Source: a virus. Taken from it: a stretch of 33,591 nt of DNA. Below, one piece after another: positions 14,349 to 33,591 of this stretch; the stretch's first letter is position 1, and every line of letters starts with the position of its first letter. Location of the stretch: positions 1 through 33,591 of IMG/VR virus record IMGVR_UViG_3300037963_001322; one strand, given 5' to 3'. The notes beneath the pieces were generated by a model. It saw only the letters and a program-made list of their open reading frames with translations. It was not told the DNA's origin and searched no databases. The translations under genes were made by a program, and so were the position numbers.

Positions 14349-17182
14349 CGGTATTGAATAGATCTATGTTTGCTGCTGGAGGAAACGTAAGTAAGTTTCC
14401 TGATTTAAGTGGTGACGGTCAGGTCACACAAAAAGACATTTTGATGGGCCGTGGAGTAATTGAAAGACAAGCCGGAGGCCCAGTTCCTGAAATGGCTCCA
14501 ACACCAGCCCCGATTCCCCCTGAAATGGAAGGCCAAATAAATGCGGTGGAAGAACAAGCTGCCATGGGCGGCGAACAAGCAGGCTTAGAATACTTAGCAG
14601 GGACCATGGAAGGCATAGATGCCGCGCAAAGTTTTGAGGAAGTTATTAATGCTATGAGGGGCAATCAAGCTCCTATGCAGGAAAGACGCATGGAACTGGC
14701 TGGTTTTGTGGGCGATGAAGACGCTTTCCGTACCCCAGATTCTGTGGTTGCCATGGTACAACCAACTATTATGTTAACCGAAGAAGGAGCCATGGATAGT
14801 GGCATAGGCCAACTAATGCAGGCTCTTTCTGATGACGTTGCCATGATGGGTCCTGAAGGCCAACCTACGCCTGTAGGTCAGGGCGTGGGCGAGTTATTAA
14901 TGCAAGGTCAGCCTGAACCAATGCCTCCAATGCCACAGGAAATGATGGCAGCGGGAGGCCCCGTTATAAAAAAGTTCGCAGCCGGCGGAGCAGTCCAGAA
15001 ATTCGCAAACGGTATGGGCGTTAACAAAATGGCTGGAACAGGGCTGGAACGTTTGTATGAAATGAGTCCCGGGATGTTTAAAGCAATAGAGGGTGAGTTA
15101 GATCCTCAAACCTTAGACGCTTTGTACCCAGAACGTTTAGCTTTGTATAAAGAAATTTACGGCGATGATGACGATGAAAGACAAAGAGGTTTTGATTTGG
15201 CGCAAGCCGGTTTTGCCTTGGCTTCTGGAATTGACCCATCCACTGGACAAAATATTGCAGGACGTCCTTTTTTGTCTCAAGTGGGTTCTGCATTAACTCC
15301 TCTTGCTCAACGACAATCGGAACGTCTTTCTGACCAAAGAAAAGGTGAACGTGCGCTTAGGTTAGCTGCCATGCAATCAGCAGAAGCAGAAGAACGACGG
15401 CAAAAAGAAGAGTTATCCCAAGAAAGACAAGCTATTTTTGGAGCTGTGACGCAGTCAGGTGCCCAAGAACGCGATATTGACGCGGCTTTGGAAAGAATGA
15501 AAAGAACTCAATTGTTTGTTACTTCTGAACGAGAAGGTTCTCAAGCGTTTAATTTAGCTATGCAAGATGATCGTCAAGCGTTTGAAAGCGAGGCGATGGA
15601 CAAACGAAATCAATATACCCGAGACCTTGCTCGACTCAATGCAGATTTACAAAGTGCTTTATCTACCCAAGATTTTAATGAAGCCAAAAAAATTAATGAC
15701 CAATTAAACTTTATTCGACGTGGTCAAATGAATTTAGCGCATGATATTCGTCTTGCTGAGATAGGCCAGCTTCACGACAACGCCATGACAATGCAGGCGG
15801 ATCAATTTGGTAGGCGAGGCGGCTTGATTGAGTTGCAAGGTCGAGTGAACTTAGGTCTTCAAGAAAACGCACAAGACTTTAAAAAGCTTATGCAAGACGA
15901 TCAACAAAGATTTTTATCTTTAGAAAAAGGGTTAGATCGAGAGTTAAGCGCAGATCAATTTGACGCTTCTTTAGAACTTAAAGAAGACTATCTAGATTTA
16001 GCTGCAGAAGAGTTTGCGTACAAGCAAGCGTTAGGACCAGAAACTTTGACTAGTGATAGCTGGTGGGCCAGCTTCTTCCGTCCAGCGGGCGTCCCGGAAG
16101 ATCAAGCTCAAGTTTTACAAAACCTCAATCAACGTAGAAGAGAACTTGAGAACCAAATGCTTAATATGAACATTAATCTTGAACCCTTTAAAGTACGGGC
16201 AGCTACGCACCTGCAACAACAAGAAATGATGTTGCGTTCTGAGATGGCTAAGAGCAAGCAATTTATGGATATGATGGGCTTGTATCAAAGCATGGGTGAC
16301 CGTCCAATAGAAAGCTCTGGCGATCTGTTAAGTATTCTTGTTGACCCACGTAACATACAAGCTTACGGGGAAGGAAAATATGTTAAAGGGATGGACATGG
16401 CTATAGGTCAGTTTTTAAATCCTCGAACAGATCCCGTTACTAAAGAGTCCGTACTTCCGTTAATTCCTTCAGACTTAGCTGCAGCGGTTCGTCAACGACA
16501 AGAGGCTGGGGTAGCCGTTCCATTAGGGTTTATGGAATTATTAGACCGTCAATTTCAGGTTGGTGGTGAAGTAGAAGCCCCAGAGTATTTAGAACCTCTT
16601 TCAGGGACCATGCTTCCGGGACCAACCAAACGTGTTCCCTTGGAAGAATACTTCCAATACGATCCTATAATTACGGGGGACACTTCGGACATCACCCAAG
16701 CAACCGGTACGCGGTCTGGTGTTTTAAGACGAGTAGCTAAGCTAGGTGAAGGTATTCAAAACCTTGTAACGGGTTCCGATTTTGAATACACGCCTCAAGT
16801 TAACCAAGCCGTTTCCCAAGTAAATGCTTTAGCCACACTAGCTACAGTTGCTATGTTAGGGTCCATACCCGGAAAAGATAACGTGCAATTACAGACCATG
16901 GTTAAAGAGTTGCAGGTTCCCGGCGGAGAATTGTTCTTAGAAGATCGTCCTGCTTTAGAGTATTTTAAAACAGCCCGACGAGTTGTTGACTTTGGCATAC
17001 GGCAACAAGAGTTAAGCATTAAAACAGCTAACCTTAGCCGTAAAGAAGAAACCAAAGCTAATATAGACCTAGCTCATATGAAGGGTATTCGGTCAGAGTA
17101 TGACAACATTATTCGAGCGTATGAAAACAAGCTGGCTCCGAGCCAAGAATTTAAAGAAGATTTGGATCAATTTTTTAACTAA
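14345..17182 (+). CDS. Large internal virion protein with EF-hand/dockerin-like loop (945 aa)
   Basis: Near the start, residues 20-31 read DLSGDGQVTQKD: Asp20, Ser22, Asp24, Gln26, Thr28 and Asp31 occupy positions 1, 3, 5, 7, 9 and 12 of a calcium-binding loop of dockerin type, followed by ILMGRGVIE. Then comes a Met/Pro-rich acidic stretch (to ~200), Gly/Ala motifs (AAGGPVIKKFAAGG), and long charged helices likely to be coiled coil (~320-560). The C-terminal half is mixed helical. No enzymatic motif seen. By size, composition and order it is an ejection or inner-core protein. ATGA overlap upstream, TAATG overlap downstream. Confidence 0.5.
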   Translation: MTVLNRSMFAAGGNVSKFPDLSGDGQVTQKDILMGRGVIERQAGGPVPEMAPTPAPIPPEMEGQINAVEEQAAMGGEQAGLEYLAGTMEGIDAAQSFEEVINAMRGNQAPMQERRMELAGFVGDEDAFRTPDSVVAMVQPTIMLTEEGAMDSGIGQLMQALSDDVAMMGPEGQPTPVGQGVGELLMQGQPEPMPPMPQEMMAAGGPVIKKFAAGGAVQKFANGMGVNKMAGTGLERLYEMSPGMFKAIEGELDPQTLDALYPERLALYKEIYGDDDDERQRGFDLAQAGFALASGIDPSTGQNIAGRPFLSQVGSALTPLAQRQSERLSDQRKGERALRLAAMQSAEAEERRQKEELSQERQAIFGAVTQSGAQERDIDAALERMKRTQLFVTSEREGSQAFNLAMQDDRQAFESEAMDKRNQYTRDLARLNADLQSALSTQDFNEAKKINDQLNFIRRGQMNLAHDIRLAEIGQLHDNAMTMQADQFGRRGGLIELQGRVNLGLQENAQDFKKLMQDDQQRFLSLEKGLDRELSADQFDASLELKEDYLDLAAEEFAYKQALGPETLTSDSWWASFFRPAGVPEDQAQVLQNLNQRRRELENQMLNMNINLEPFKVRAATHLQQQEMMLRSEMAKSKQFMDMMGLYQSMGDRPIESSGDLLSILVDPRNIQAYGEGKYVKGMDMAIGQFLNPRTDPVTKESVLPLIPSDLAAAVRQRQEAGVAVPLGFMELLDRQFQVGGEVEAPEYLEPLSGTMLPGPTKRVPLEEYFQYDPIITGDTSDITQATGTRSGVLRRVAKLGEGIQNLVTGSDFEYTPQVNQAVSQVNALATLATVAMLGSIPGKDNVQLQTMVKELQVPGGELFLEDRPALEYFKTARRVVDFGIRQQELSIKTANLSRKEETKANIDLAHMKGIRSEYDNIIRAYENKLAPSQEFKEDLDQFFN

Positions 17183-20100
17183 TGCCTATTGGATTTCCAT
17201 TTAGTAAAGCTTCGCAAATAGCTTCTTTAACAGAAGAAGAGCGACAAGAGCTAGAACGCGCCCGGGGAGCAGCCAAAGACCCTATTGATTTTAATTTAGG
17301 GGAAGCTTACGAATATTTGCGAGACAAAGGTTTAGAAGAACCGCAAGCTCTTAAAAGTATTGCAGAAAAACTTTCTGAAAAAGCAGACTTTAATTACGAA
17401 GGCGCACGTAAAGCTCAGTTCACAGATGAAATGATCATAGCTCGATTAATAGGTCGTGAAACAGACGATTTACGGCCTGATTTGTTGCAAAGTTTTGGCG
17501 AAGGTTTTGGTCGAGCGGTGGCCCGAGAAGCTCCGGGAGCTGCAGCTTTTGCGGGAGCGGCTACCGTAACTCCCGGTGGTCCCATGGCTAAACTAGCCGC
17601 AGGAACCGCCGCAGGAACAGCAGTTGGTTTATTTGGCGACGGAGATTTGGTTGAAGACTTTTTGTTTTCGGAGCGTCAGTTACTGCCCTCTGAACGATCT
17701 GCAGCCCGAGTAGGCGACACTTTGGGATCGGCTTTGGCTTGGATATTGCCGGGAAAACAAATAGTAAAAAGTATTCCAGATGAAGTGAATCTTGGCTCAC
17801 GGCGCATGTTACAAGCGCATCAGGAACGCCGAAATAAAATCTTGAACAAAGAAAGAGGCTTTGAAGGTCTTTCTCGAAAAGAAAGAAAAACGTTAGAAAA
17901 AGAACCTTTTAAGTTAAAAGCAGCACGAACTTCAGAAAAATTGCTGGAAGGTTTAGGTCGCGGAGCGCGGGAAACAGGCATTGGTACTTATGCAACAGCA
18001 GATCTTCTAGCCACTGTTATTCCGGCTATGACAGAGGGTGTTTTAGAGTACATGTACCCCGGGAGGGAAGAGATTATTATTTCTGGAGGCGTAGCTTCCT
18101 CTCTTATTCCCACTCCAACAAAAATAGTAGCCGGAGGCGTTAGCACGGCTACCGGAGCTGGTAAAGCTGCGCTTGAGTCTGTAAGAGAAGAAGGCGGTTT
18201 TTTTAAAGCTGCTACAGAAGGCTTTGGTTTAAGACAAGCTATTCAAACCAGAAGACAAGAAAAAGCTGCTGCTTACTTAGCGCAAGCTTTTGAAGATGCC
18301 GGAGGAGACCCCAGAAAGTTTGCTGAAGAGTTAGAGGCGGCTATACAAGCAGACCCGGAAGGGGCTGAAATGTTAACAGCAGGTCAGTTAAGCAACAATC
18401 CAATTGTGTTGTTAGCTGAAAGAACGTTGGCAGAGCAAAATAAATACCTAGATTCCGCACAACAACAAGCTGCTTTACAAGGAGCGCAACGACTTACTAG
18501 GCTAATTTTAACTTTAGAACAAACAGGAAACCCGGAGTTGTTGCAGTACGCTGGACAACTTAAAGAAAACGCTTTGGATGCTCAATTTACTGCTTTGATT
18601 GAAGGTAAACTGGCTCAAGCTGTTGGTGCAGCCGACAAACTTCCTAATGTTAGAACAGGTAAACCCAGCACGGAAATAGCAATGGATCAATCCGCTTTAG
18701 TTAAAGATGCTATTACAGAAGCGCATGACGCGGCTAAGGCAATTTCTAGGCAAAAGTACGATGCGGTAAATAAACTAACCATGGTAGACGCAAAGCCTTT
18801 ACTTAATGCTTATTTACTAGCTAAAGAAAAATACTTATTAAAAGGAGAAAAACTTCCCGCTGTTTTAATGGCTGCTTTAGAAGACATGGGACTTAGTGAC
18901 ATTAAACAACTGGATCGAATTGATTCCGAAATACGGCGTCTAGAACAAGATCCGAGCATACGACTCGGTCAAATAAGCGGGTTGAATAATGTTCTTGACG
19001 GTTTGCGGGACCAAAAAGCGAAGCTAATAGAAGAAGGGTTAGGTCAAATCGAATTAGGGGAAGTAATTAAATTTAAAAATAGAGCGGGAGCTTTTTACCG
19101 ACAAGCGAAAGCTGGAGTAGAACCTTTTGATCCCGCCTTATTTAGTGAAATGACGAGGGGTGCAGACATTGTTCTTCTTAATCGAATAGTAGGGGAAATT
19201 CCCGAAGAAGTAGCTTTGCAACGATATGTCGATGAGTACGGTGATATTGACATTGACATTGAGGAACTGATTGCAGGACTGGAATTAACGCCCGATCAAA
19301 AGATATTGAAAGACGCTTATCAATATACACGCGCCATGAACAAAGCGTTTAGGCAAACCATTGCGGGTGATATGACTCGCATGGATCGAGATTTAGCTCA
19401 AGTAATTCCTTTTGAGGAAGCTTTAGATAGAGTTTTTACAGGAAATTCAAGCAAGGTAGCTAGGCAAGCCCGGGAGTTGCAAGAAGCTATGCGTTTTGTA
19501 TACGGAGATATGGATAACCGGGTTCATTCTCTTAATGGCCACATGGATGCGTTTTTACGAAATAAAATGCTTGAGTTTACTACCATGGAAACTCGGGTTT
19601 TGGCTGACGGAACAACAGCTGAAGTTCCTGTTATTTCAGACAGTGGTTTAAAATCTTTTAAAAGAAAATATGACGGGGTGTTAAAACTTCCCGGAATGGA
19701 ATCTTTAAAGAACGACTTAAACGAATTAGATACTGCTAACGTTGCGTTACAAACTGCTTTAGCTGAAGGCACGGAACATTACAAAAATAGTATGGCGCAA
19801 GTTGGTTTAGCTAACTTTTTACACAGACGACGTGGTTTACCTAAAGATGGTGAACGGCCTAGGTTAGAAAATGCCAGCGTGGTTATAGGCGATATTCTTA
19901 GTCAAGAAGATCCCGTGGCAGCTTTAACTAGATTAGCTAACGAAATTAAAGAATATGCGCCCGCAGAGCTTCTTCCTGAAATACAAAGAGGTCTGTTTGC
20001 TTCTGTGGTGGAGTACGCAGAACAACGTTCACGAAACAAAATCGGCATTGATTTTAATAAGATGTATGACGTTTTGTTTGAGACCGGCTCCGTTTCTTCT

Positions 20101-20853
20101 ATGACAAAGTTTGGTAGAAGATCCCCTTCAATTATGAGCGTTTTAGAAAAGCAAGGTGCTTTACCAAAAGAACAAATAGAAGAACTACAAGATTTTCTTC
20201 AACGCGGTAAAAATTTACAAATTTCTCTTGACGCAGGAATAGATGATTTCATCAACCTGAAAGAAACCAGTGCCATGAAAGATTTCTTTGTTCGGTATGC
20301 TGGAGCAAGGGGCATGTCTCAACTTAGCGCGGCTTCTGGAGTCGTTCCTTCCATACAAGAAACAGGGGCCGCAGCGCAGTTAAGTAGAAATGTTTTTGTT
20401 AACTTTCCACAAGCAGCTCTTCAAGATATTTTAGTGGACGTGTCTTCTCCCGGCAGAGCCTCTGCTTTAGCTGAATATTTAAGACGTGGAGCAGATCGAG
20501 CAACAACACGCCAAGGACTTGAGCGAGTTTATGACTATGTAGCCAATACCTTACTAGGCGCAAAAGGTTTGTTGTTTGCCGCACCCAGCCGACTAGCTGA
20601 CGATAATTTGGGGGCGCAAACAGATCGACGCTTTGAAGAACAACGACGAGTGGCTCCTCCTATACCCGTACCCGAGGCTCCTGCACCAATGGCTGAGTTA
20701 AGTATCCCACAAGGAATGCAAGCTACACCTCCGCCCCCGCCTCCCGGACCTCAAATGGCTAGTCAACGGCAGCAGTATGCTCAAATGTTTCCGTTTGATA
20801 CGGCTTCTGATGTTATTCGACAACAGGGCGGTATTGGGAGCTTGATGCCTTAA
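17182..20853 (+). CDS. Very large internal virion protein, probable ejection component (1223 aa)
   Basis: Starts at ATG 17182 overlapping the preceding stop. Residues ~115-155 are Ala/Gly-rich and hydrophobic (AAAFAGAATVTPGGPMAKLA; AGTAAGTAVGLFG), as is ~260-325; these may be membrane-inserting. Most of the rest is charged helix. The C-terminus is Pro-rich, with a PPPPPP run, and ends DVIRQQGGIGSLMP. Single proteins over 1000 residues at the end of a tail module are typical of channel-forming ejection proteins (T7 gp16 size class), but I see no lytic transglycosylase signature. The TAA overlaps the stop of the opposing helicase gene by three bases. Confidence 0.5.
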   Translation: MPIGFPFSKASQIASLTEEERQELERARGAAKDPIDFNLGEAYEYLRDKGLEEPQALKSIAEKLSEKADFNYEGARKAQFTDEMIIARLIGRETDDLRPDLLQSFGEGFGRAVAREAPGAAAFAGAATVTPGGPMAKLAAGTAAGTAVGLFGDGDLVEDFLFSERQLLPSERSAARVGDTLGSALAWILPGKQIVKSIPDEVNLGSRRMLQAHQERRNKILNKERGFEGLSRKERKTLEKEPFKLKAARTSEKLLEGLGRGARETGIGTYATADLLATVIPAMTEGVLEYMYPGREEIIISGGVASSLIPTPTKIVAGGVSTATGAGKAALESVREEGGFFKAATEGFGLRQAIQTRRQEKAAAYLAQAFEDAGGDPRKFAEELEAAIQADPEGAEMLTAGQLSNNPIVLLAERTLAEQNKYLDSAQQQAALQGAQRLTRLILTLEQTGNPELLQYAGQLKENALDAQFTALIEGKLAQAVGAADKLPNVRTGKPSTEIAMDQSALVKDAITEAHDAAKAISRQKYDAVNKLTMVDAKPLLNAYLLAKEKYLLKGEKLPAVLMAALEDMGLSDIKQLDRIDSEIRRLEQDPSIRLGQISGLNNVLDGLRDQKAKLIEEGLGQIELGEVIKFKNRAGAFYRQAKAGVEPFDPALFSEMTRGADIVLLNRIVGEIPEEVALQRYVDEYGDIDIDIEELIAGLELTPDQKILKDAYQYTRAMNKAFRQTIAGDMTRMDRDLAQVIPFEEALDRVFTGNSSKVARQARELQEAMRFVYGDMDNRVHSLNGHMDAFLRNKMLEFTTMETRVLADGTTAEVPVISDSGLKSFKRKYDGVLKLPGMESLKNDLNELDTANVALQTALAEGTEHYKNSMAQVGLANFLHRRRGLPKDGERPRLENASVVIGDILSQEDPVAALTRLANEIKEYAPAELLPEIQRGLFASVVEYAEQRSRNKIGIDFNKMYDVLFETGSVSSMTKFGRRSPSIMSVLEKQGALPKEQIEELQDFLQRGKNLQISLDAGIDDFINLKETSAMKDFFVRYAGARGMSQLSAASGVVPSIQETGAAAQLSRNVFVNFPQAALQDILVDVSSPGRASALAEYLRRGADRATTRQGLERVYDYVANTLLGAKGLLFAAPSRLADDNLGAQTDRRFEEQRRVAPPIPVPEAPAPMAELSIPQGMQATPPPPPPGPQMASQRQQYAQMFPFDTASDVIRQQGGIGSLMP

Positions 20854-26886: not shown

Positions 26887-27098
26887 AATCGTTAGAAGAA
26901 CAAATTGCAGGCGAACACTATAAGAATCAGAAAATTCAACCCATTGAATACATTCTGGCAAACGAGCTGCCTTTCATTGAAGGCAACATCGTTAAATACA
27001 TCACGCGCTGGCGTGAGAAAGGGGGAATCGAGGACTTAAAGAAAGTCCGGCACTACGTCGAAATCTTAATGGAGTATGAGAATGAACACGATAAGTAG
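26883..27098 (+). CDS. DUF3310 protein, T7 gp1.7 nucleotide-kinase-like
   Basis: 71 residues matching the DUF3310 pattern: HYKNQKIQPIEYILANELPF, then EGNIVKYITRWREKGGIEDL, KKVRHYVEIL. In T7 the gp1.7 protein with this domain has nucleotide kinase activity for dGMP and dTMP; others are uncharacterised. This is close to the minimal domain length. ATGA overlap with the helicase gene, and its end overlaps the polymerase start by 17 bp, so it is part of the replication operon, supplying dNTPs or acting beside the polymerase. Confidence 0.9.
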   Translation: MKSLEEQIAGEHYKNQKIQPIEYILANELPFIEGNIVKYITRWREKGGIEDLKKVRHYVEILMEYENEHDK

Positions 27099-28995
27099 AT
27101 TACAGTTCCCTTTGTTTACCCCTCCTTCGGAGTGGGTTCCACCTGACCCTCTTCCTGACCTGACTGACGCTAAAGAAATTGCGATAGACCTTGAGACACG
27201 AGACCCGGATCTTAAAACCCAAGGCCCGGGCTGGCCCACCGGGAACGGTGAGGTTGTCGGCATAGCTGTCGCAGTCGAGGGCTGGTTTGGATACTTACCA
27301 ATTGCTCATCTGGGCGGCGGAAATCTGGATAAGCGCATTGTCACAAACTGGTTGAGAAAGCAGCTCGTAACCGATTGCCCGAAGATTATGCACAACGCTC
27401 AATACGACGCGGGTTGGCTACGTCAGATGGGCATCACGATGAACGGGCCAATCGTAGACACCATGATCATGGGTTCACTGTTGGACGAGAACCGATTTAG
27501 TTTTTCTCTGAATGCACTGGCTTTCGATTATCTGGGCGAAGCAAAGTCTGAACGGACCCTTACGGAGGCTGCGATAGATTTCGGGGTTGATCCGAAGGCT
27601 GAACTTTGGAAGTTGCCCGCCCAGTTTGTTGGATCGTATGCAGAACAGGACGCTAAGCTGGCACTGGATCTATACAAATTTTTTAAAGTTCGGCTGGCAG
27701 CGGAGGATCTTTCCACCGTCTTTGATCTGGAGACTCGGTTGACCCCATGCCTGATCGACATGACATGGCGCGGTATCCGCGTGGACATGGACCGCGCTGA
27801 GCGGACCAAACAGGAATTACTCAAACGGGAAAAGGACACCCTGAAAAGGGTGAAAAGTCTTGCTGGGTTTAATGTTGAGATCTGGGCAGCGGCATCACTG
27901 GCTAAAGCATTTGACACGCTGGGACTGCAGTACCCCAAGACAGACAAAGGTGCGCCGTCCTTTACTAAGTCCTTTCTTTCCGAGCATCCGCATGAGTTCC
28001 CCCAGCTAGTCGTCAAGGCGCGGGAGCTGAACAAGGTCCAAGGAACTTTTATTACTTCGATTATGAAGCACGTAGGACCGGATGCTCGTATCCATGGGCA
28101 CGTCAATCAGATCCGTTCTGATGACGGGGGCACCGTTAGCGGTAGGATCAGTATGAACAACCCCAACCTCCAACAGATCCCGGCTAGAGATCCAGAGCTG
28201 GGTCCAATGATCCGCTCGTTGTTTCTCCCGGAGGAGGGTGAGCAGTGGGCGGCAATAGATTTCTCGCAGCAAGAACCACGGATCTTGGTTCACTATGCCA
28301 GCGTTTTTGGCGAGTGGAAGCGCACGTCGCTTCGGGGCGTCGATGAATTTCTGGATGGCTATCGCAATGATCCTGACATGGACTTTCATACGATGGTTTC
28401 AGAGATGGCTAACATTCCAAGGAAGCAGGCCAAGGTAATAAATTTAGGCATGATGTACGGCATGGGCGTCAACAAGCTTGCTGCACAGCTCGACATCGAG
28501 CCAGAGGAAGCGAAGGAGCTGACCAAGCAATACCACTCCCGAGTTCCCTTTGTAAAAGAGCTGATGAACGGCGTAAGTTTAAAAGTTGAAAGCTCTTCCG
28601 GGGATGGTGCTGTGCGCTCCCTGAAAGGCCGTAAATGCCGTTTTGAGCTTTGGGAGCCAAGAGGGTTTGAGTTACGCAAAGCGTTGCCCAGACAGGAAGC
28701 AGAGGCCCAGTACGGGTCCACCGCCTCTCTGAAACGCGCCTACACGTACAAAGCGTTGAATCGTCTGATCCAAGCTTCTGCAGCTGACATGACCAAACAG
28801 GCCATGGTCGATATGTACGAGAGTGGAGAGACGCCTTTAGTGCAGGTACACGATGAATTAGGTTGTAGCGTACAAGACCGGAACCACGCGGTAAAAATTA
28901 AAGAGCTTATGGAAAACGCCATTACTTTAAGGGTTCCCAATAAATGTGACATCGATCTTGGGCCATCGTGGGGCGAGGCAGAGGAAGTAAAATAG
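27082..28995 (+). CDS. polA: Family A DNA polymerase with 3'-5' exonuclease domain
   Basis: Start 27082 chosen over ATG 27076 because GGAG at 27071-27074 is 7 bases before 27082 but only 1 base before 27076. 637 residues, no 5'-3' exonuclease domain. Exonuclease motifs: IAIDLETRD (D36, E38), IMHNAQYDAGWL, SYAEQDAKLALDL. Polymerase motif A AAIDFSQQEPRI with D393; motif B RKQAKVINLGMMYG; motif C VQVHDELG with D591. The motif-B residue matching E. coli Phe762/T7 Tyr526 is Leu455. All catalytic acids are present. Replicates the phage genome with the upstream primase, SSB and helicase. Terminal gene of this operon. Confidence 0.96.
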   Translation: MNTISRLQFPLFTPPSEWVPPDPLPDLTDAKEIAIDLETRDPDLKTQGPGWPTGNGEVVGIAVAVEGWFGYLPIAHLGGGNLDKRIVTNWLRKQLVTDCPKIMHNAQYDAGWLRQMGITMNGPIVDTMIMGSLLDENRFSFSLNALAFDYLGEAKSERTLTEAAIDFGVDPKAELWKLPAQFVGSYAEQDAKLALDLYKFFKVRLAAEDLSTVFDLETRLTPCLIDMTWRGIRVDMDRAERTKQELLKREKDTLKRVKSLAGFNVEIWAAASLAKAFDTLGLQYPKTDKGAPSFTKSFLSEHPHEFPQLVVKARELNKVQGTFITSIMKHVGPDARIHGHVNQIRSDDGGTVSGRISMNNPNLQQIPARDPELGPMIRSLFLPEEGEQWAAIDFSQQEPRILVHYASVFGEWKRTSLRGVDEFLDGYRNDPDMDFHTMVSEMANIPRKQAKVINLGMMYGMGVNKLAAQLDIEPEEAKELTKQYHSRVPFVKELMNGVSLKVESSSGDGAVRSLKGRKCRFELWEPRGFELRKALPRQEAEAQYGSTASLKRAYTYKALNRLIQASAADMTKQAMVDMYESGETPLVQVHDELGCSVQDRNHAVKIKELMENAITLRVPNKCDIDLGPSWGEAEEVK

Positions 28996-29007
28996 TTGTT
29001 GTTTTTC

Positions 29008-29037
29008 TTGCTAAAAAGTATGAGATCCACTTATAAT
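29008..29037 (+). promoter_or_regulatory. Sigma70-type promoter abutting the RHH gene
   Basis: TTGCTA (4 of 6) at 29008-29013 and TATAAT (perfect) at 29032-29037, spacer 18. The predicted start is at 29043-29045, essentially the ATG at 29045, so the transcript would be leaderless or nearly so. No Shine-Dalgarno sequence is seen before this ATG. Confidence 0.7.
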
Positions 29038-29044
29038 AGCGCAT

Positions 29045-29215
29045 ATGGATACAACAAGATGGAAAAGCATTTTGGTGCCGATTGAAGTGTATCGGCAAGT
29101 ACGCGAGATTGCTCACTTGGAAGGGAGGACTATCTCCGGGCAGCTTCGGCTGATTTTTGAGCAATGGAAAGAAGATAGAAAGCAAGAGGCTAGGAAGCTT
29201 GACGGAGTTGCCTAA
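29045..29215 (+). CDS. Ribbon-helix-helix (Arc/CopG-like) transcription regulator (56 aa)
   Basis: ATG 29045 to TAA 29213-29215. The sequence reads RWKSILVPIEVYRQVREIAH, then LEGRTISGQLRLIFEQWKED: a short N-terminal strand (K-S-I-L-V), helix A, a G-R-T turn, then helix B starting with Ser, as in ribbon-helix-helix proteins, which bind DNA as dimers with paired strands in the major groove. Basic Arg/Lys tail. The gene has its own promoter and a strong terminator, so it is a separate unit. Possible targets: its own promoter or the 22353 inverted repeat. A GTG at 29075 is a possible start but would remove the DNA-binding strand. Confidence 0.75.
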   Translation: MDTTRWKSILVPIEVYRQVREIAHLEGRTISGQLRLIFEQWKEDRKQEARKLDGVA

Positions 29216-29229
29216 CCTTGAAAGAATGT

Positions 29230-29260
29230 GGGGGTTCAACTCTCTAAAACTGAACTCCCC
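29230..29260 (+). other. Imperfect hairpin after RHH gene
   Basis: GGGGTTCA at 29231-29238 pairs with TGAAC, then CCCC at 29257-29260, with one bulged T. No T-run follows, so not a complete terminator; it may protect the RNA end or help the terminator at 29299. Confidence 0.4.
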
Positions 29261-29298
29261 CCTAATCGGCAGAAACCTCGCTAGTTTAACGCCGAAAG

Positions 29299-29339
29299 AG
29301 CCTCGGTTAGCCACCTACTAACCGAGGCTTTGTCTTTTT
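29299..29339 (+). terminator. Strong Rho-independent terminator after RHH gene
   Basis: Perfect 12-bp stem: AGCCTCGGTTAG at 29299-29310 with CTAACCGAGGCT at 29318-29329, 7-base loop, then TTGTCTTTTT. Separates the polymerase/RHH transcripts from the structured RNA leader that follows. Confidence 0.92.
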
Positions 29340-29477
29340 AGGCCAAGGGGAGTAATAACCCCTTCATGCGTAGCTTAGCCCTCTGCGGGTCGAAAACGGG
29401 CTTTACCTCTTTAGACCAAAGGATAGCTCATCCTTCGGAGCAAGACCGGTCCACTTGTGGTCGAAAACGGACCTTTA
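29337..29477 (+). promoter_or_regulatory. Two tandem structured RNA modules in a leader, riboswitch-like
   Basis: Module 1 is 29337-29405, module 2 is 29410-29477. Each has TTTAG(G/A)CC, a 5-6 bp hairpin (29345-29350 with 29359-29364; 29419-29424 with 29430-29435), a 12-base spacer, then a 5-bp stem with a 16-base loop ending GGTCGAAAAC (29377-29381 with 29398-29402; 29448-29452 with 29469-29473). Stem bases differ between copies in compensating pairs while the loop is conserved. Loop GGTC can also pair with the upstream G(G/A)CC, giving a pseudoknot in each. The linker ACCTC (29405-29409) is complementary to GAGGT (29481-29485) at the ribosome binding site of the next gene. Ligand unknown; no known class recognised. 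Confidence 0.65.
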
Positions 29478-29489
29478 ATTGAGGTAACC

Positions 29490-29678
29490 ATGAAAAAAAC
29501 GAAACAAGAAGAAAGCAAAGAGCTAGAAGATCAAGTCGCTGAGTTTTTAAAAAAAGGCGGGAAGATCGAAGAAGTAGACATAACCGTCTCTAATTCTAAA
29601 AAACTGGAATTATCTAAACGTTTCTTTGCTAAAACCAATCACTTTGTTTATCGACAGGGCAAGAAAAAGGGACCGTAG
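29490..29678 (+). CDS. Small Lys-rich protein with SutA-like motif (62 aa)
   Basis: ATG 29490 is preferred: GAGG at 29481-29484 is 5 bases upstream. An upstream in-frame GTG at 29457 falls inside the RNA hairpin loop and is rejected. The product reads DQVAEFLKKGGKIEEVDITV, then a basic Arg/Lys end (FVYRQGKKKGP). The 'x-FLxxGGKIxEVxxxV' segment resembles the RNA polymerase-binding part of Pseudomonas SutA and its relatives, from memory. If right, it would be a phage protein touching host RNA polymerase; otherwise an unknown small basic protein. Its stop codon sits in the terminator hairpin. Confidence 0.6.
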   Translation: MKKTKQEESKELEDQVAEFLKKGGKIEEVDITVSNSKKLELSKRFFAKTNHFVYRQGKKKGP

Positions 29679-29688
29679 TCCCTTTCTT
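29666..29688 (+). terminator. Intrinsic terminator containing the stop codon of the 62-aa gene
   Basis: AAAGGGAC at 29666-29673 pairs with GTCCCTTT at 29678-29685 with a 4-base loop, followed by CTT. The TAG at 29676-29678 lies at the loop and the start of the 3' arm. The T-run is short, so termination may be partial. Confidence 0.6.
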
Positions 29689-29689
29689 A

Positions 29690-29890
29690 AAAAGTTGCTT
29701 ATATCACACTCCGCAGTGGCGACCTGCAGAGTGCCGATCCCTCGTGATATTATGTCCCCTTCTGCTCCACTGACTAAAGGATCGGATGGAGGGTTTTCTT
29801 GGGACTAACTCTAGCCCATGGCACTATCTCCCGTCTGGTTGATGCTGCGATATAGCCACTCGCGACGTGGCCTCACCCGCAGCCTTTTTA
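29690..29890 (+). ncRNA. Candidate structured small RNA with pseudoknot
   Basis: Stem P1: ATATCAC at 29701-29707 with GTGATAT at 29744-29750, enclosing a 9-bp hairpin with one mismatch (29708-29716 with 29724-29732). CCGATCC at 29734-29740 is complementary to GGATCGG at 29779-29785; because it starts within P1 and ends outside it, the two stems interleave as a pseudoknot. GTCCC 29754-29758 can pair with GGGAC 29801-29805. The region ends in a terminator at 29844-29889. No convincing ORF is present; an 18-codon ATG frame at 29752 lacks a ribosome binding site. No promoter was found inside, so it may come from readthrough. Class not recognised. Confidence 0.45.
29844..29889 (+). terminator. Intrinsic terminator, nested stem
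   Basis: GCTGCG at 29844-29849 pairs with CGCAGC at 29878-29883, enclosing GCCAC 29855-29859 with GTGGC 29867-29871. TTTTT follows at 29885-29889. Faces the minus-strand operon end and limits transcription into it. Confidence 0.7.
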
Positions 29891-30022
29891 TTCTTCTTCC
29901 ATTAATTTAACGTAAACCCCGGTCCAGTACGTTCTGGCCCACGCATTTAAATTAGGTTTTTCTAAAATATTCCTTACCGCCAATAGCTGAGAAATCATTC
30001 TCCATTCTGTTTGATTAAACAT
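29888..30022 (-). CDS. Small protein, last gene of the minus cluster (44 aa)
   Basis: ATG at 30022-30020 overlaps the stop of the 374-residue gene (TAATG), with TAA at 29890-29888. The product, starting MFNQTEWRMISQLLAVRNIL and ending KLMEEE, is helical with several Trp. Unknown family. The exact stop-start overlap makes it likely to be translated. Its stop touches the terminator T-run of the opposing unit. Confidence 0.6.
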   Translation of the reverse strand: MFNQTEWRMISQLLAVRNILEKPNLNAWARTYWTGVYVKLMEEE

Positions 30023-31146
30023 TACGTCTCATCCTTTTCAACAACATAATCTTTAGTAATCACTCCCAAGCTGGGATCGCCGCGTTTATGCTCTTTAATA
30101 TACACGCTTTTAAGAATGTATCCGTGTTCATCCTTATAATGACGCCAGTGTCCTGCTACGTCGTGTTGTCGTACTCCAGCAAACTCCGTGCGCTTTGGCT
30201 CTTTTGGCATTATTACACGGCCCTTGGTTTTGGGCAGCGTTAGCTTTACGCGCACGTGCGAGTCGTGAGGGGTTATTTCTTTCTTTAACCGTTTGCCTTG
30301 TACTCCAAGAACCTTCGGCTCCTCCACGAACCAGTCGTAATTCATCAAGGACATCATGGCTATCAACCTCGCATATTTGTTTTGATTGATCCGGCCCGTA
30401 ACTATTTCGTACCCCCCGTTTACATTTTCTGGAATGTCACAAACGTAGTCATTAAAACCCCCGGACCATCTTTCGAGAAGACCTGATATGTCGTTGCTGG
30501 TCGTGGCTTCATGGTCTCCCAAAAACATTAACGGGAAAAACCGTGACTTAAAGGTTTGGACTTGCCCTCTTGCGTTATCCTCAATATATTGCCCGCTCAA
30601 ACTCCAAAGGCAGGTTTTAACATTTATTGGATACAAGGCTACTGCGGTTTTTGCAGGGAAAAGCGTGGTTGTTTCGTCACGGGTTCCGTACACCTCTTCG
30701 TGATAATGTTCTATGACATACACATCTCCACGCTCACACCGTTTTTTTCCGATTAGTTCATTCTGTTCGTTTATGATTGCAATTTCGGGGGATTCTCGAA
30801 CATGAAAACCAGTTAACCCGAACCCCGGGTACAAATGCCCCAAATCAAATTCAATCCACTGATTGAAGTGGCGAGGGCGGGCATTCAGCATAGCTTTATA
30901 AAGCTGATGCTGATTACCTTTTTCAACTTGTGGCTCCAAATACTCCAAGATTTCATTGCTGATTTCGTAGGTCACACTGCTTTGAATCCGGTTAGTTCTT
31001 TCGCGCACCATCTTCTTTACGTGCGCTTTCCACGCTTTAGGGTGGTGAAACTCTTCTAAGCCGCCCAAACGGATGTACGGCTTTTGAATTGCGTGAATAA
31101 CTTCTTGTTTAAGCTGACCCAGTTCCAGTTTTTCTCCTTCGTGCAT
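30022..31146 (-). CDS. Conserved phage protein of unknown function (374 aa)
   Basis: AGGAGA ends 8 bases before ATG 31146. Soluble, helical start (ELGQLKQEVIHAIQKPYIRL), a middle alpha/beta part (RPRHFNQWIEFDLGHLYP; FLGDHEATTSND), and a basic, well-patterned C-terminus: RQHDVAGHWRHYKDEHGY then KEHKRGDPSLGVITKDYVVE. I remember this C-terminal pattern (H-x-V-x-GHWR...K-x-H-x-RGD-SLG) in many phage proteins with no known function. The conserved His, Arg and Asp could be a nucleic-acid or catalytic site, but that is speculation. It lies downstream of the terminator at 31181, so it may have its own promoter. Confidence 0.6.
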   Translation of the reverse strand: MHEGEKLELGQLKQEVIHAIQKPYIRLGGLEEFHHPKAWKAHVKKMVRERTNRIQSSVTYEISNEILEYLEPQVEKGNQHQLYKAMLNARPRHFNQWIEFDLGHLYPGFGLTGFHVRESPEIAIINEQNELIGKKRCERGDVYVIEHYHEEVYGTRDETTTLFPAKTAVALYPINVKTCLWSLSGQYIEDNARGQVQTFKSRFFPLMFLGDHEATTSNDISGLLERWSGGFNDYVCDIPENVNGGYEIVTGRINQNKYARLIAMMSLMNYDWFVEEPKVLGVQGKRLKKEITPHDSHVRVKLTLPKTKGRVIMPKEPKRTEFAGVRQHDVAGHWRHYKDEHGYILKSVYIKEHKRGDPSLGVITKDYVVEKDET

Positions 31147-31180
31147 AAGATTAGTCTCCTATATTCGCATACATGTGCTG

Positions 31181-31216
31181 CAAAAAAACCGCGCCAGTCG
31201 TGAGACAAAGCGCGGT
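31181..31216 (-). terminator. Minus-strand intrinsic terminator of the small-gene cluster
   Basis: On the minus strand, ACCGCGC (31216-31210) pairs with GCGCGGT (31194-31188), followed by a run of seven T (31187-31181). A GC-rich 7-bp stem directly before the T-run is a textbook terminator for transcripts coming from 33591 leftwards. The 30022-31146 gene starts beyond it. Confidence 0.9.
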
Positions 31217-31298
31217 AGGAAGGGTTCCCATTACAGGTTGGGAACTGAGATGAACAGCTAGGGGACTGTTATCAGCTGCCCCAAAACATAACAAACTT
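31217..31298 (-). other. Non-coding spacer with hairpin
   Basis: GTTCCCA 31224-31230 pairs with TGGGAAC 31239-31245. Nearby CAGCT/AGCTG and GGGG/CCCC complementary pairs (31255-31282) interleave. No ORF and no promoter that I can defend. Confidence 0.4.
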
Positions 31299-31625
31299 TT
31301 AATGGATTGTCGATTCATCTTCTAAAAAAGGATTAATTAATAAATGTTTGAATTCTTCCAAATCTTCTAGTTCCACATTCTCATTGAACGGGGCCGACGA
31401 CAGCATAGCCACGTACAACGATTCATCCAGCGACGTCATCAACATCTTCGGATCTTCAGTGTGGGCAAAGAGTGTGTAAGCCGAGAAAAAAATTAAAAAC
31501 CGCAATGTCTCCTCGTCCGTACAGCCCTCGTCCACGGCCCACTTCCTGATATCCGTGATCTTGTCATAAAGCTTCTTGTGCCGGGGATCTTCCGGGTCCA
31601 TCCAAAATTTAGAAAAATCACTCAT
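31299..31625 (-). CDS. Acidic helical protein (108 aa), unknown
   Basis: Starts MSDFSKFWMDPEDPRHKKLY; mostly helices with acidic C-terminus (NENVELEDLEEFKHL). A hydrophobic patch RFLIFFSAYTLFA at about 42-54 is likely buried helix. Starts 2 bases after the upstream stop. Last gene before the terminator. Small acidic proteins are common in early phage regions that target host enzymes, but no family is recognised. Confidence 0.6.
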   Translation of the reverse strand: MSDFSKFWMDPEDPRHKKLYDKITDIRKWAVDEGCTDEETLRFLIFFSAYTLFAHTEDPKMLMTSLDESLYVAMLSSAPFNENVELEDLEEFKHLLINPFLEDESTIH

Positions 31626-31627
31626 GT

Positions 31628-32143
31628 TTACTCTTCCGTCCAGTGCATTTCGTTAATCGACGCTTCGATGTGAACGATTGGCTCGTCGGATCTTCTGTAA
31701 GCCTCTCTTAGACCACAAACCAAAGGGTTCAGGATCGCTGCCCGCTCTTCAAACGACATTGATTCGTAGACGTCGTAATCGAAAGAGATCGGAATCCGGG
31801 TTAACAAAAATTTCTCCTCGCTGTTGTGTCTCTCGACATAAACATCCACTCCCAAGTCCCTGCGCTTGTGAACATATTGAAGCGAAGGATCACACACTTG
31901 AAAGACCGGGCCTTTCGTTTCTTGTGCGTCAAGCTGCTGCTCCCGCTCAAAAAGCTTGTTTCTGAGATCCTCCGTTTCTTTGTACAAACGTCGATGCGAT
32001 TGAATACGAACCTCTTCCATGGTAGCTGCGTCGGCATCTGCTTCTTTTATTTTTGACTTCAGCTTCTTAACTTTGTTTTCGAGCCGCCTAACTTTCTTGG
32101 ACAACTCTTCGTTCCGCTTTTCCATTTCGCTCTTTAAAACCAT
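31628..32143 (-). CDS. Coiled-coil protein (171 aa), unknown
   Basis: Residues ~5-75 are a long Lys/Glu-rich coiled coil (EELSKKVRRLENKVKKLKSK, then helix to REQQLDAQ). The C-terminal 90 residues are a small alpha/beta domain (PVFQVCDPSLQYVHKRRDLG; then ERAAILNPLVCGLREAYRRS). Unknown family. Start at ATG 32143, one base after the preceding gene's stop. Part of the same run of minus-strand genes. Confidence 0.6.
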   Translation of the reverse strand: MVLKSEMEKRNEELSKKVRRLENKVKKLKSKIKEADADAATMEEVRIQSHRRLYKETEDLRNKLFEREQQLDAQETKGPVFQVCDPSLQYVHKRRDLGVDVYVERHNSEEKFLLTRIPISFDYDVYESMSFEERAAILNPLVCGLREAYRRSDEPIVHIEASINEMHWTEE

Positions 32144-32144
32144 G

Positions 32145-32315
32145 CTATTCCCCTAGTTGATGTTTCGGCTGACGCTTGGCGACTACCGAGACAATTTCCG
32201 CGCCTGCCGGCACGTGTTTTTGAATATCGGATAAAACCAAGTCCCGGATATCCACCGCTTTAGTGTCCCCGTCAATCTTGTAGATGACGTGAACGTTAAA
32301 CACACCTCTTTCCAT
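32145..32315 (-). CDS. Small alpha/beta protein (56 aa), unknown
   Basis: ATG 32315 overlaps the previous stop (TAATG); TAG at 32147-32145. Reads MERGVFNVHVIYKIDGDTKA, then a helix (VDIRDLVLSDIQKHVPA) and a final strand (EIVSVVAKR). Strand-helix-strand order resembles a small ferredoxin-like half domain. No function. Confidence 0.6.
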   Translation of the reverse strand: MERGVFNVHVIYKIDGDTKAVDIRDLVLSDIQKHVPAGAEIVSVVAKRQPKHQLGE

Positions 32316-32521
32316 TACTGCTGCTCCATCAAAAGTAGCTGACTTTTAAAAACTTCTTCTTCCTGTTCGATCCCGGTGATGTCAGTCAGCTGAATGTCAA
32401 ACTCCTTGAATTCCTTAAACTCGTGTGGCGGCTGGGTCAGGATCGACACCGTGGTGTCCATGGCCTTCTCCTCGTCGTCCGCCTCGAATTCAATGTAAAT
32501 CTGCAGCTTGTAATGGGGCAT
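32315..32521 (-). CDS. Small acidic protein (68 aa), unknown
   Basis: Starts MPHYKLQIYIEFEADDEEKA, a strand with a following helix (KAMDTTVSILTQ), then acidic strand and tail (FDIQLTDITGIEQEEEVF). Similar strand-helix-strand layout to the next small protein, so the pair may be related. Overlaps the upstream stop (TAATG) and the downstream start. Confidence 0.6.
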   Translation of the reverse strand: MPHYKLQIYIEFEADDEEKAMDTTVSILTQPPHEFKEFKEFDIQLTDITGIEQEEEVFKSQLLLMEQQ

Positions 32522-32919
32522 TACTTTTTGTTCTCCTCGTTAAGTTTGTGTTCTCGCTTGACGAGTTTTTCTAAATCCCGGATTGTTTGCTGACGTTCCA
32601 CAAAGTCAATGACCGATTCCTTCCCTGCCTTTAACCGGTGAAAATCCAGTTCCGAAACGTAAATCGGAGAGGGATCAAACACTTCTACCGCCAGTATCTT
32701 TGTGCGGAGGTCTTTCAGTTCCTGAATTGAATCCTCGTAACAATCCTCAATATAGTCCGAGTCAACTTCCCCGGTCACCAGATCAATCACATCCCGTAAC
32801 GCCATCATAACCATGCACCACTCGTCTTCGGTAAGATGGGCCTCGTTTTCGTTGTCGCCGCCAGCCATGACAGTCATGTAGGTGTCATACTGCTCGTCGG
32901 TTTTTTTATGCCATTTCAT
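32521..32919 (-). CDS. Acidic/helical protein (132 aa), unknown
   Basis: Starts MKWHKKTDEQYDTYMTVMAG; middle is acidic with helices (EDEWCMVMMALRDVIDLVTG), end is a Lys/Glu helix (RDLEKLVKREHKLNEENKK). ATG lies in the ATGA overlap with the upstream gene's stop. No family recognised. Confidence 0.6.
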   Translation of the reverse strand: MKWHKKTDEQYDTYMTVMAGGDNENEAHLTEDEWCMVMMALRDVIDLVTGEVDSDYIEDCYEDSIQELKDLRTKILAVEVFDPSPIYVSELDFHRLKAGKESVIDFVERQQTIRDLEKLVKREHKLNEENKK

Positions 32920-33104
32920 ATTCCGTCTACTCCAACGTTAATCTGAATACACGCGCCGTTCATCGTAGCGTCCAGCACACGGTCCCCGCCTTCCTCCTGA
33001 ACAAACACCCAGAGCCGATGCCCTTGCTGCGTAATCAACGCCGCCAGCTCCTCGTTCGATAACGAGTTGCCAATGTCCAAAATTGCCTTGTGATCAATGC
33101 TCAT
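32916..33104 (-). CDS. Small protein (62 aa), unknown
   Basis: Starts MSIDHKAILDIGNSLSNEEL, helix then beta strands (HRLWVFVQEEGGDRVLD; CIQINVGVDGI). Its start overlaps the end of the 42-residue gene by 11 bp and its TGA overlaps the next ATG. Unknown family; coupled translation supports it. Confidence 0.6.
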   Translation of the reverse strand: MSIDHKAILDIGNSLSNEELAALITQQGHRLWVFVQEEGGDRVLDATMNGACIQINVGVDGI

Positions 33105-33222
33105 TGTTTCTCCCTAGATTTTCTTTTATGTCGGACAAGAGATTACGAATCTCCTGCAAAGTTTTAAAAATTTCTTCCAAGTCGTCGGCGTCCAGCACCA
33201 GCTCGATACGAACTTCCTTCAT
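33094..33222 (-). CDS. Very small protein (42 aa), unknown
   Basis: ATG 33222 to TGA 33094. Reads MKEVRIELVLDADDLEEIFK, TLQEIRNLLSDIKENLG: one strand then helix, acidic. It overlaps the zinc-ribbon gene's end by 4 bases and the next gene's start by 11. Continuous overlap on both sides makes it plausible. Confidence 0.5.
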   Translation of the reverse strand: MKEVRIELVLDADDLEEIFKTLQEIRNLLSDIKENLGRNNEH

Positions 33223-33467
33223 TCTTTTTTCTCCGGGACCTTTCCAAAGATCATATCAGCTATCTTAGTGCCCATGTCAGCGTCGGCCATAGCTTGTTGA
33301 AACCTCGCTGCCCACGCTTCGGAACCCTCAAGGCACGTTTCACAAACAAACAACGACGTGTCCCCTACCTCGAAACAAACGTCAACGCTCCCTTGTTCGT
33401 TTTCGTACACGTACATAACGTCTCTACAACGATCACACGTCATCGTGCTAAATAAAGTCTCGCTCAT
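33219..33467 (-). CDS. Small two-CxxC zinc-ribbon-like protein (82 aa)
   Basis: Start at 33467 (MSETLF) is preferred over the upstream in-frame ATG at 33503 because AAGGA is directly upstream and ATGA overlaps the upstream stop. The product has TCDRCRDVMYVYENEQGSVD and later CETC, giving C-x2-C ... C-x2-C spaced about 30 residues, as in zinc ribbons. A helix (AWAARFQQAMADADMG) follows. Zinc binding is inferred; such small proteins often bind nucleic acids or host proteins. Confidence 0.65.
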   Translation of the reverse strand: MSETLFSTMTCDRCRDVMYVYENEQGSVDVCFEVGDTSLFVCETCLEGSEAWAARFQQAMADADMGTKIADMIFGKVPEKKE

Positions 33468-33591
33468 TCTTCCTTGCTCCTTGTGACACGCTCCACGTGC
33501 CATCGTTTTTCAAATTCAACGGTGATTTGGTCCCGGTTAATCGGGTTGGCTTTTATCAGGGCTTCTTCGTTGTCCCTAGCGAACAAATCTA
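33464..33591 (-). CDS. Minus-strand gene, 5' end outside window (41+ aa)
   Basis: The open frame reads from the right edge to TGA at 33466-33464, which overlaps the zinc-ribbon gene's ATG. Visible residues include DLFARDNEEALIKANPINRD, then QITVEFEKRWHVERVTRSKE. Unknown family; same cluster. Confidence 0.6.
   Translation of the reverse strand, partial: DLFARDNEEALIKANPINRDQITVEFEKRWHVERVTRSKEE

Follow-up and report, generated by a model that had tools for sequence, protein, structure and literature searches.

The window analysed here is the whole IMG/VR viral record IMGVR_UViG_3300037963_001322 (W; 33,591 bases, without flanking sequence). Its subject is a minus-strand operon of small genes that runs from 33591 to 31299 and is followed by a structured RNA element. 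Clusters like this one are familiar. Most deserving of further attention are gG, a gene that joins exchangeable heads to a constant tail, and the RNA. The explanation that we prefer, and hold with some reserve, describes a translationally coupled accessory operon whose proteins would act on host factors, with a docking tail on gG and a small RNA that would mask Shine-Dalgarno sequences. Neither the swapped heads nor the structured end element had been mentioned in an earlier, sequence-only reading of this DNA, which had presented the cluster as a set of host-takeover genes.

The operon contains eight complete genes of 42–171 residues and one that is cut at the contig edge. In reading order on the minus strand, we named these genes gH, gG, gF, gE, gD, gC, gB, gA, and g0. 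The dense cluster claimed in the sequence-only reading is real and its coordinates are right. The stop-start overlaps that this reading had ascribed to nearly all of the genes occur at six of the eight junctions (4, 4, 11, 4, 1, and 1 nucleotides (nt), in order from gH), and the last two junctions have gaps of 1 and 2 nt instead. The same spacings recur in L002, one of the related IMG/VR contigs to which we gave L numbers. Purine-rich stretches that resemble Shine-Dalgarno sequences can be read by eye in the operon. The first gene, gH (33464–33589), is complete in L002 (6516–6782), where it encodes 88 residues; the two versions are 95% identical over 41 residues. Upstream of gH in L002 lies an intergenic region containing TTGACA, beyond which the genes read away. 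By analogy, the promoter of the operon in W would lie in a divergent region just beyond the contig edge. For gG, we rejected a start at 33503 (an open reading frame (ORF) of 94 codons), since L002 retains the ATGA-coupled start at 33467.

Related contigs were gathered from IMG/VR with four queries: gA, the gG tail, gX (the next gene downstream of the RNA and terminator; 30022–31146, minus strand, 374 residues), and F13 (the gene that precedes gG in clade 2; 136–142 residues). Their gene maps fall into two clades. Clade 1 consists of W and its closest contigs L002, L003, L004, and L006, and has the gene order of W. Clade 2 consists of L005, L007, L008, L009, L010, L014, L015, L021, and L027–L030. 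These contigs keep gB and gA adjacent (L015 and L010 are cut within gA) and carry gG, together with other upstream genes that include F13. The gene gD stands at the far end of the operon in L005, L007, L008, and L030, and g0 was found in clade 1 only, with none found in clade 2. Hence, the content and order of the operon differ between close phages by insertion, replacement, and relocation, as expected of genes that interact with the host. Small phage genes that overlap are generally annotated as hypothetical and left at that; here, the comparison separates a core, gB–gA, from the genes that are exchanged.

The individual genes show how much of this cluster is maintained. In the clade-1 relatives, every operon gene is present where the contig reaches, except gE in L004, where it was not detected and gF runs into gD. 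The 42-residue gF (33094–33222) is 100% identical in L002 and 98% in L004, with 3 and 5 nt differences, respectively. The 62-residue gE (32916–33104) is 92% identical in L002 and L006 and has relatives in L014, L027, and L030. In gD (32521–32919, 132 residues), the first ∼82 residues are conserved, and the C-terminus differs in L005, L007, and L008. The 68-residue gC (32315–32521) is 95.6–100% identical in four contigs, with ratios of nonsynonymous to synonymous substitution rates (dN/dS) of 0–0.14. The core genes are gB (32145–32315, 56 residues), which adjoins gA in both clades, and gA (31628–32143, 171 residues), for which AlphaFold2 predicts a long coiled coil and a C-terminal α/β domain. 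The 108-residue g0 (31299–31625), the last gene before the RNA element, is 96–100% identical in four contigs. Two side observations concern the core. The middle and C-terminal parts of gA have been exchanged among the close contigs L009, L030, L014, and L021, and gA of L009 and L030 is only 80% identical although their PolA proteins are almost 100% identical. Contig L027 holds two copies of gB in one operon (5457–5627 and 5824–5985), with a homologue of the small gene F20 between them.

Pairwise dN/dS values against the closest contigs range from 0 to 0.26 for the eight genes from gG to g0, where gG was counted over its tail only. Differences in the longer genes fall mostly at third codon positions, as do all six differences in gC of L002 and both differences in gB of L006. 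Judged by these substitution patterns, the eight complete genes are real and under purifying selection. The two very short genes at 32145–32315 and 33094–33222, which had been flagged as easily missed, are borne out by this result: gB and gF are kept, and genes of 56 and 42 residues look translated and useful, in the case of gF on the basis of few differences. For gH, 5 and 6 differences in 123 nt (2/1/2 and 3/0/3 at the three codon positions; dN/dS 0.24–0.38) in 41 codons are too few to judge selection.

Scans of the nine operon genes against Pfam, PHROG, NCBIfam, and PADLOC gave no convincing match; the nearest were weak coiled-coil matches for gA and DUF6664 for gD at E = 4 × 10⁻⁴, below the family cut-off. 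Since PADLOC holds families of defence rather than counter-defence, absence there says little about anti-defence functions. Searches with tblastn of gA, gX, the gG tail, and F13 of L008 found no homologue among phage records (50,697 for gA and gX), and a search with a gA profile through bacterial and archaeal genomes, one for each species, was likewise without result. A similarity between gF and F24, suspected by eye, was not used because the alignment is short and weak (E = 0.015 in one comparison). The earlier description of many of the proteins as acidic or zinc-ribbon-like survives in part. Seven of the nine have an isoelectric point below 5.5, and so do 16 of the 22 other W proteins tested, so that acidity is not distinctive; zinc-ribbon-like features are confined to gG. 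As for host takeover, the setting fits, with small, co-directional, coupled genes of variable content beside a replication module; the families that could have identified such proteins gave no convincing match. We regard this reading as a plausible proposal.

The gene gG (33219–33467, minus strand) encodes 82 residues in W, comprising a zinc-ribbon-like head (approximately residues 1–57) and a constant tail (QAMADADMGTKIADMIFG...). We compared 13 sequences from distinct contigs, leaving out L028 and L029 as near-copies of L027. The tails align in all 78 pairs. The heads sort into seven types and align over most of their length only inside a type; between types, the only matches at E < 0.05 are stretches of 7–10 residues that involve the L007 head. 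The tails measure 46–49 residues in clade 2 and 25–29 in clade 1, and seven aligned tails have A, A, G, KIADM, and G in common (with Q in place of K in L027). The heads gave nothing convincing when scanned against Pfam and PHROG, and W gG had no match in sequence and fold searches of the PDB.

Comparison of close relatives reveals how heads and tails have been combined. W and L004 are nearly identical in PolA (dN 0.004, dS 0.124) and 92–97% identical in gH, gF, gD, and gA; their gG tails are identical and their heads unrelated. L005 and L007 likewise share almost the same tail DNA (dS 0.04) and have unrelated heads. Conversely, the heads of L008 and L015 are identical (dS 0.075), whereas dS reaches 0.41 in the tails and 0.50 in the preceding F13, which argues that gG heads travel independently. 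In the same two contigs, tail-less orphan heads stand directly upstream of the full gG. The orphan of L008 is the head that is fused to the tail in L014 and L021. That of L015 is a zinc-ribbon head that matches the head of W (BLASTP E = 10⁻¹³; 51% over 49 residues). The gG of L005 has two heads in tandem, the second inserted at the start of the tail. Within types, purifying selection acts on tails and heads alike, except in the tails of L005 and L007 (dN 0.066, dS 0.037), whose N-terminal edge is a recombination joint.

These alignments identify gG as a variable-head/constant-tail protein. The tail may serve for docking or oligomerisation and is less likely to be a packaging signal, because it is C-terminal and the operon is non-structural; we put this forward with low certainty. 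A partner of the tail would provide a handle on the system, and the heads could be assayed as a set. Some observations on the neighbouring F13 belong here. This gene has no convincing family match and was found at 37 IMG/VR loci at 58–100% identity, of which 35 were examined; L067 has no readable next gene. Among the 23 distant loci of these 35, which lie outside both clades, no gG tail was seen by eye in the genes after F13. In most clade-2 contigs, F13 ends in GAGGC.GTGT(A/G)ATG, which forms the left-hand boundary of the exchanged heads of gG.

The second part of the finding is the RNA element, which occupies 31182–31280 on the minus strand. It consists of hairpin 1 (31270–31253) with the loop CCCCUA, hairpin 2 (31245–31224), and a terminator (31216–31182) made of a hairpin (31216–31188) and a T-run (31188–31182). 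The terminator noted in the sequence-only reading is thus real, and forms part of a larger structure. A first terminator pattern scan, limited to loops of at most 8 nt, did not list this hairpin. The stretch 31355–31178 is identical over 178 nt in five contigs and is the longest invariant run in a 6.5-kb alignment, in which 32 of 122 fourfold sites in gC–g0 vary. We do not use the value of 10⁻¹⁶ as a strict probability of such invariance, because it treats sites as independent and because fourfold variability is lower in g0 (5 of 33). The fold z-score is −4.7 for W (31280–31182) and −7.2, −6.1, −3.5, −3.2, and −2.6 for the versions of L009, L027, L021, L008, and L007, respectively.

The region is reached by 14 contigs, and each of them has one copy of a motif for the element that was drawn up after viewing the alignments; the copies represent seven sequence versions. 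The likely counterparts in clade 2 lie on the opposite strand, behind polA and ribbon-helix-helix genes. Common to the versions are hairpin 1 with a (C/A)CCCUA loop, a UC(A/G)(U/C)CUCA stretch, hairpin 2, and the terminator; six of the seven also contain a (C/A)UUCCU linker. The UC(A/G)(U/C)CUCA stretch is largely unpaired in W, L009, and L027 and partly paired in L008. The stems of hairpin 1 differ in sequence (AACAGU/GCUGUU in W, GAAGAAGU/GCUUCUUU in L008, UAGAAGAGU/GCUCUUCUG in L009, and GAACCA/UGGUUC in L027). Covariation was counted over four distinct gap-free rows, leaving out L027 with its 9-nt loop. All pairs form in all four rows, two of the six are altered on both sides, and the covariation score was equalled by 4 of 500 shuffles. 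Hairpin 1 is the minimum-energy pairing in the folded clade-2 versions other than L027. The combination CCCTAGCT-gap-TCRYCTCA occurs once in W and in none of 100 shuffles, and a 19–20-nt pattern that covers the W and L027 versions hit seven contigs in IMG/VR, all of this lineage and already known.

Covariance models extend this comparison to a limited degree. Model R1, built on the clade-1 element, gave weak clade-2 matches in L009/L030 (E = 0.07) and L027–L029 (E = 0.35), and R2, the clade-2 model that includes L008 and L021, recovered W at E = 0.1 and L027 at 0.027. Five of the seven versions have stops in all three frames, and in those of W and L027 one frame remains open. For this reason, we rejected an ORF across the RNA (31318–31151, 55 residues) as a gene. 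As a structured, non-coding stretch that ends in a terminator, the element resembles bacterial and phage small RNAs. No Rfam family matched at either threshold, and blastn against phages and plasmids returned nothing or short matches at E = 0.1–0.3. We are confident that the RNA is a real conserved element. Within the last part of g0 lies a promoter-like site (31285–31313, minus strand; TCGACA-17-TATGTT, −10 preceded by TG), a candidate for a promoter of the RNA's own.

What this RNA may bind is suggested by its loop. The octamer CUAGGGGA at 32149–32156 (minus strand), in the Shine-Dalgarno region of gA, is the exact 8-nt complement of UCCCCUAG in the RNA in clade 1, and the window has one further copy of this octamer, namely the complement of the RNA itself. 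In the versions examined, the CCCC of the loop is unpaired for the most part (probability of at least 0.74 in W), whereas the last G of UCCCCUAG usually takes part in a pair. When 34 start regions of W (a set that does not include gH) were ranked by pairing with UCCCCUAG, gA came first with −14.5 kcal/mol, followed by the gene at 22967 (−11.1 kcal/mol) and gE (−10.3 kcal/mol). The energy for gA was equalled by 2 of 2000 random windows. Complements of 6 nt at gE and gG were rejected as support for further targets, because equally long ones occur at other starts; a shared CTCGCTAGTTTWA motif was rejected as a promoter mark because it is not above chance in the window. We surmise that the RNA could act by pairing with Shine-Dalgarno sequences, a possibility that we rate as rather doubtful; gA as its target in clade 1 is more doubtful still.

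Taken together, our preferred explanation proposes the following sequence of events. The operon would be transcribed leftward, towards the replication genes, as one translationally coupled accessory unit, and its small proteins would act on host factors early in infection. The gG heads would be interchangeable effectors that the tail brings to a common partner. The RNA element would be a small RNA that either is set free from the operon's 3′ end or arises from a separate promoter, and its C-rich loop would mask Shine-Dalgarno sequences, with gA as the best candidate in clade 1. Pairing with gA would provide negative feedback within the operon, as described for OppZ in Vibrio. A bolder form of this proposal, which we think improbable, would see in the element a family of phage RNAs not described before, with covarying stems that carry a conserved (C/A)CCCUA loop; this RNA would change strand and neighbour between clades and mask the Shine-Dalgarno sequences of a mini-gene operon, perhaps also those of host messages. 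In this form, gG would be a cassette gene with a docking tail, exchangeable heads, and a tail-less reserve upstream.

A number of results speak against the explanation that we prefer. None of the operon proteins has a recognisable function. The structure models are of low or moderate confidence: that of W gG is poor, with two helices in the tail region and a predicted local distance difference test score (pLDDT) of 62, and that of gA has a pLDDT of 73.6. Structure prediction, which had been recommended as a check on the host-takeover idea, yielded no PDB match for either protein (no fold at E ≤ 0.001 for gA, for which a PDB sequence search was also without result). Promoter-like sites of the kind seen in g0 number six in W against 4.8 expected. 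Further invariant runs of 164 and 147 nt lie near polA, and recent recombination could contribute to them and to the run over the RNA. The number of both-side changes in hairpin 1 was equalled by 157 of 500 shuffles, and four rows are little. The shared hairpin 1 lies 0.4 kcal/mol above the minimum in W and L027, with pair probabilities of approximately 0.3–0.4, and RNAalifold applied to clade 1 picks a different first hairpin (GGGG/CCCC).

The covariance models add to these difficulties. Run unfiltered, R1 ranks L008 (E = 1.6) and L005 (E = 5.1) below unrelated stretches and misses L007 and L021. R2 scores an unrelated stretch of L004 better than W (E = 0.0036), and in 30 records it matched only the L008 and L021 contigs, both of which are in the model; it missed L027, the 23 distant F13 contigs, L012, L042, and the two named phages introduced below. 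As far as such models go, the case for homology across clades is weak and they alone do not settle it; the sequence patterns described above perform better. The L004 stretch (5926–6037), which outscores the W RNA with R2, and its equivalent in L002 (5947–6058) are hairpin-rich and lie on the early side of the operon; they could be unrelated or a further structured element.

The pairing proposal meets its own counterevidence. The gA Shine-Dalgarno sequences of clade 2 are AGGAG or GGAG, without the complement, so that the match in clade 1 may be a coincidence or specific to that lineage. CTAGGGGA occurs at least twice in 16 of 100 window shuffles. Of 34 starts, 2 have a complement of at least 8 nt to the whole RNA, as do 68 of 3000 random windows, and 6-nt complements like those at gE and gG are found at 5 of 11 starts examined. 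Our confidence in the preferred explanation and in its bolder form has been lowered by this control with the whole RNA and by the pairings that compete with hairpin 1 in W and L027. With the control, our estimates also fell for action by Shine-Dalgarno pairing and for gA as the target, and slightly for the RNA as a real conserved element.

The strongest rival is ordinary mosaicism, which we consider a realistic alternative of somewhat lower probability. It would describe the operon as shifting accessory genes, the gG tail as a remnant of recombination, and the RNA as a stable 3′ end with a terminator. Genes have been gained, lost, and replaced all along the operon, and gG is not alone in changing within a gene, as the C-terminus of gD and the gA genes of L009, L014, L021, and L030 show. 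Moreover, module junctions formed by recombination, whether homologous at short conserved boundaries or illegitimate, are standard in phages according to the excerpts of PMC3029335 available to us. Mosaicism alone accounts less readily for a tail that follows seven head types in frame and that nearly all pairwise comparisons (L005/L007 excepted) show to be under purifying selection, for the pairing of hairpin 1 that is kept through compensatory changes in four rows, or for the stretches outside the terminator that the versions of the element have in common.

An alternative that we judge unlikely casts the RNA as a cis-acting leader or attenuator of gX, where read-through would be controlled by a ligand, a protein, or the ribosome. 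The T-run ends 35 nt before the start of gX, and this strand continues with gX and gY. However, the likely clade-2 counterpart lies on the other strand with no gX downstream, an argument that depends on homology between the clades, and gX of L008 directly follows gA. In addition, gX has been replaced between phages while the RNA stayed invariant: the gene is 84% identical to the copy in L008 and only 23% identical to the homologue that takes its position in L002 (8998–10428), in other respects a much closer relative. Least probable is that the 178-nt invariance reflects a recent tract of gene conversion or recombination with a gX-swap breakpoint at its end instead of selection on an RNA, for although the tract ends where the gX replacement starts and the 164- and 147-nt runs are invariant in the same alignment, structured counterparts with shared motifs exist in seven versions and the flanking g0 has 16 variable sites upstream of the tract.

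The surroundings of the operon provide some further context. Beyond gX, the last same-strand gene before the convergent replication genes is gY (29888–30022, 44 residues), which is kept in both clades. In L012 and L013, a 41%-identical homologue of gX is the first rightward gene of its block and stands beside short leftward ORFs; one of these resembles a Cro-like repressor by eye, which hints at an early position of the gX homologue. A second hairpin-rich stretch (29400–29490, plus strand) lies just upstream of a 62-residue gene that is found on opposite strands in the two clades. A stretch similar by eye (GACCAAAGG..CCTTCGGAGC..GGTC.AAAACGG) follows the RNA terminator in L007–L009. A PHROG scan of W detected a replication module with primase, helicases, and polA, virion proteins, and auxiliary genes including a ferredoxin-like protein and a 2OG-Fe(II) oxygenase; a tRNA scan found none. 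PolA of W is 55.5% identical to that of Phage DSL-LC04 and 52.4% identical to that of Pelagibacter phage HTVC023P, which identifies W, by this protein, as a tailed phage distantly related to both. At megablast sensitivity, no phage record matched bases 1–25000, and six records matched bases 27000–33591 weakly and in short pieces. Several of the IMG sample numbers probably belong to marine viromes. Two very long ORFs without a PHROG match (945 and 1223 residues; 14345–20853) adjoin the helicase and correspond by position to the "DNA transfer protein" region of DSL-LC04.

Phages of the HTVC023P type have been described (PMC9599517, seen in excerpt). Like W, DSL-LC04 and HTVC023P have primase, helicase, and polA in the same order, and many short genes followed by the small terminase. 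Both carry rows of small hypothetical genes at the same place beside the replication genes. In W, by contrast, the block of small genes that adjoins polA occupies the opposite strand. For the RNA and the operon genes, a limited search of open-access literature and the excerpted text of a review on phage small RNAs (PMC12197685) contained no recognisable match. Open-access literature on mosaic genes with a conserved C-terminal and a variable N-terminal part contained nothing on phage early proteins.

In phage T4, the capsid targeting sequence is N-terminal. The T4 internal proteins (IPI and its relatives), as characterised in the excerpted part of PMC3012670, are very diverse, counter restriction enzymes, and have only this sequence in common. 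The protein gG is similar in that a short constant segment carries diverse small proteins. It differs in that its constant part is C-terminal and belongs to a non-structural operon, whereas the T4 segment directs packaging into the head. Segmentally variable genes also join a conserved segment to one without detectable similarity, and their variable region is at least 70 residues long by the definition in the excerpted text of PMC387263. The gene gG resembles them in its conserved and dissimilar segments and falls outside this definition, since six of its seven head types measure 19–68 residues.

The RNA has two counterparts of this kind. Rhizobial SmelA075 and SmelA099 present anti-Shine-Dalgarno loops on drifting stems (PMC3927594, in excerpt). 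The W element similarly combines a conserved C-rich loop with a stem whose sequence drifts, yet it has a single, differing C-rich loop instead of repeated CCUCCUCCC loops; a relationship was sought in Rfam only. OppZ of Vibrio cholerae is an autoregulatory RNA that originates from an operon 3′ end and pairs with an internal translation start (PMC7398697, likewise in excerpt). Unlike OppZ, the W RNA is phage-encoded, its candidate pairing would involve the apical loop rather than the 5′ end, and its target match, no more than suggestive in clade 1, is absent from clade 2. Like OppZ, it lies at the 3′ end of an operon, and its complementarity to the translation start of gA inside that operon may be a second point in common. 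The RNA is a candidate through which feedback control within an operon of a virus could be tested, and its conserved loop permits a two-sided mutation test.

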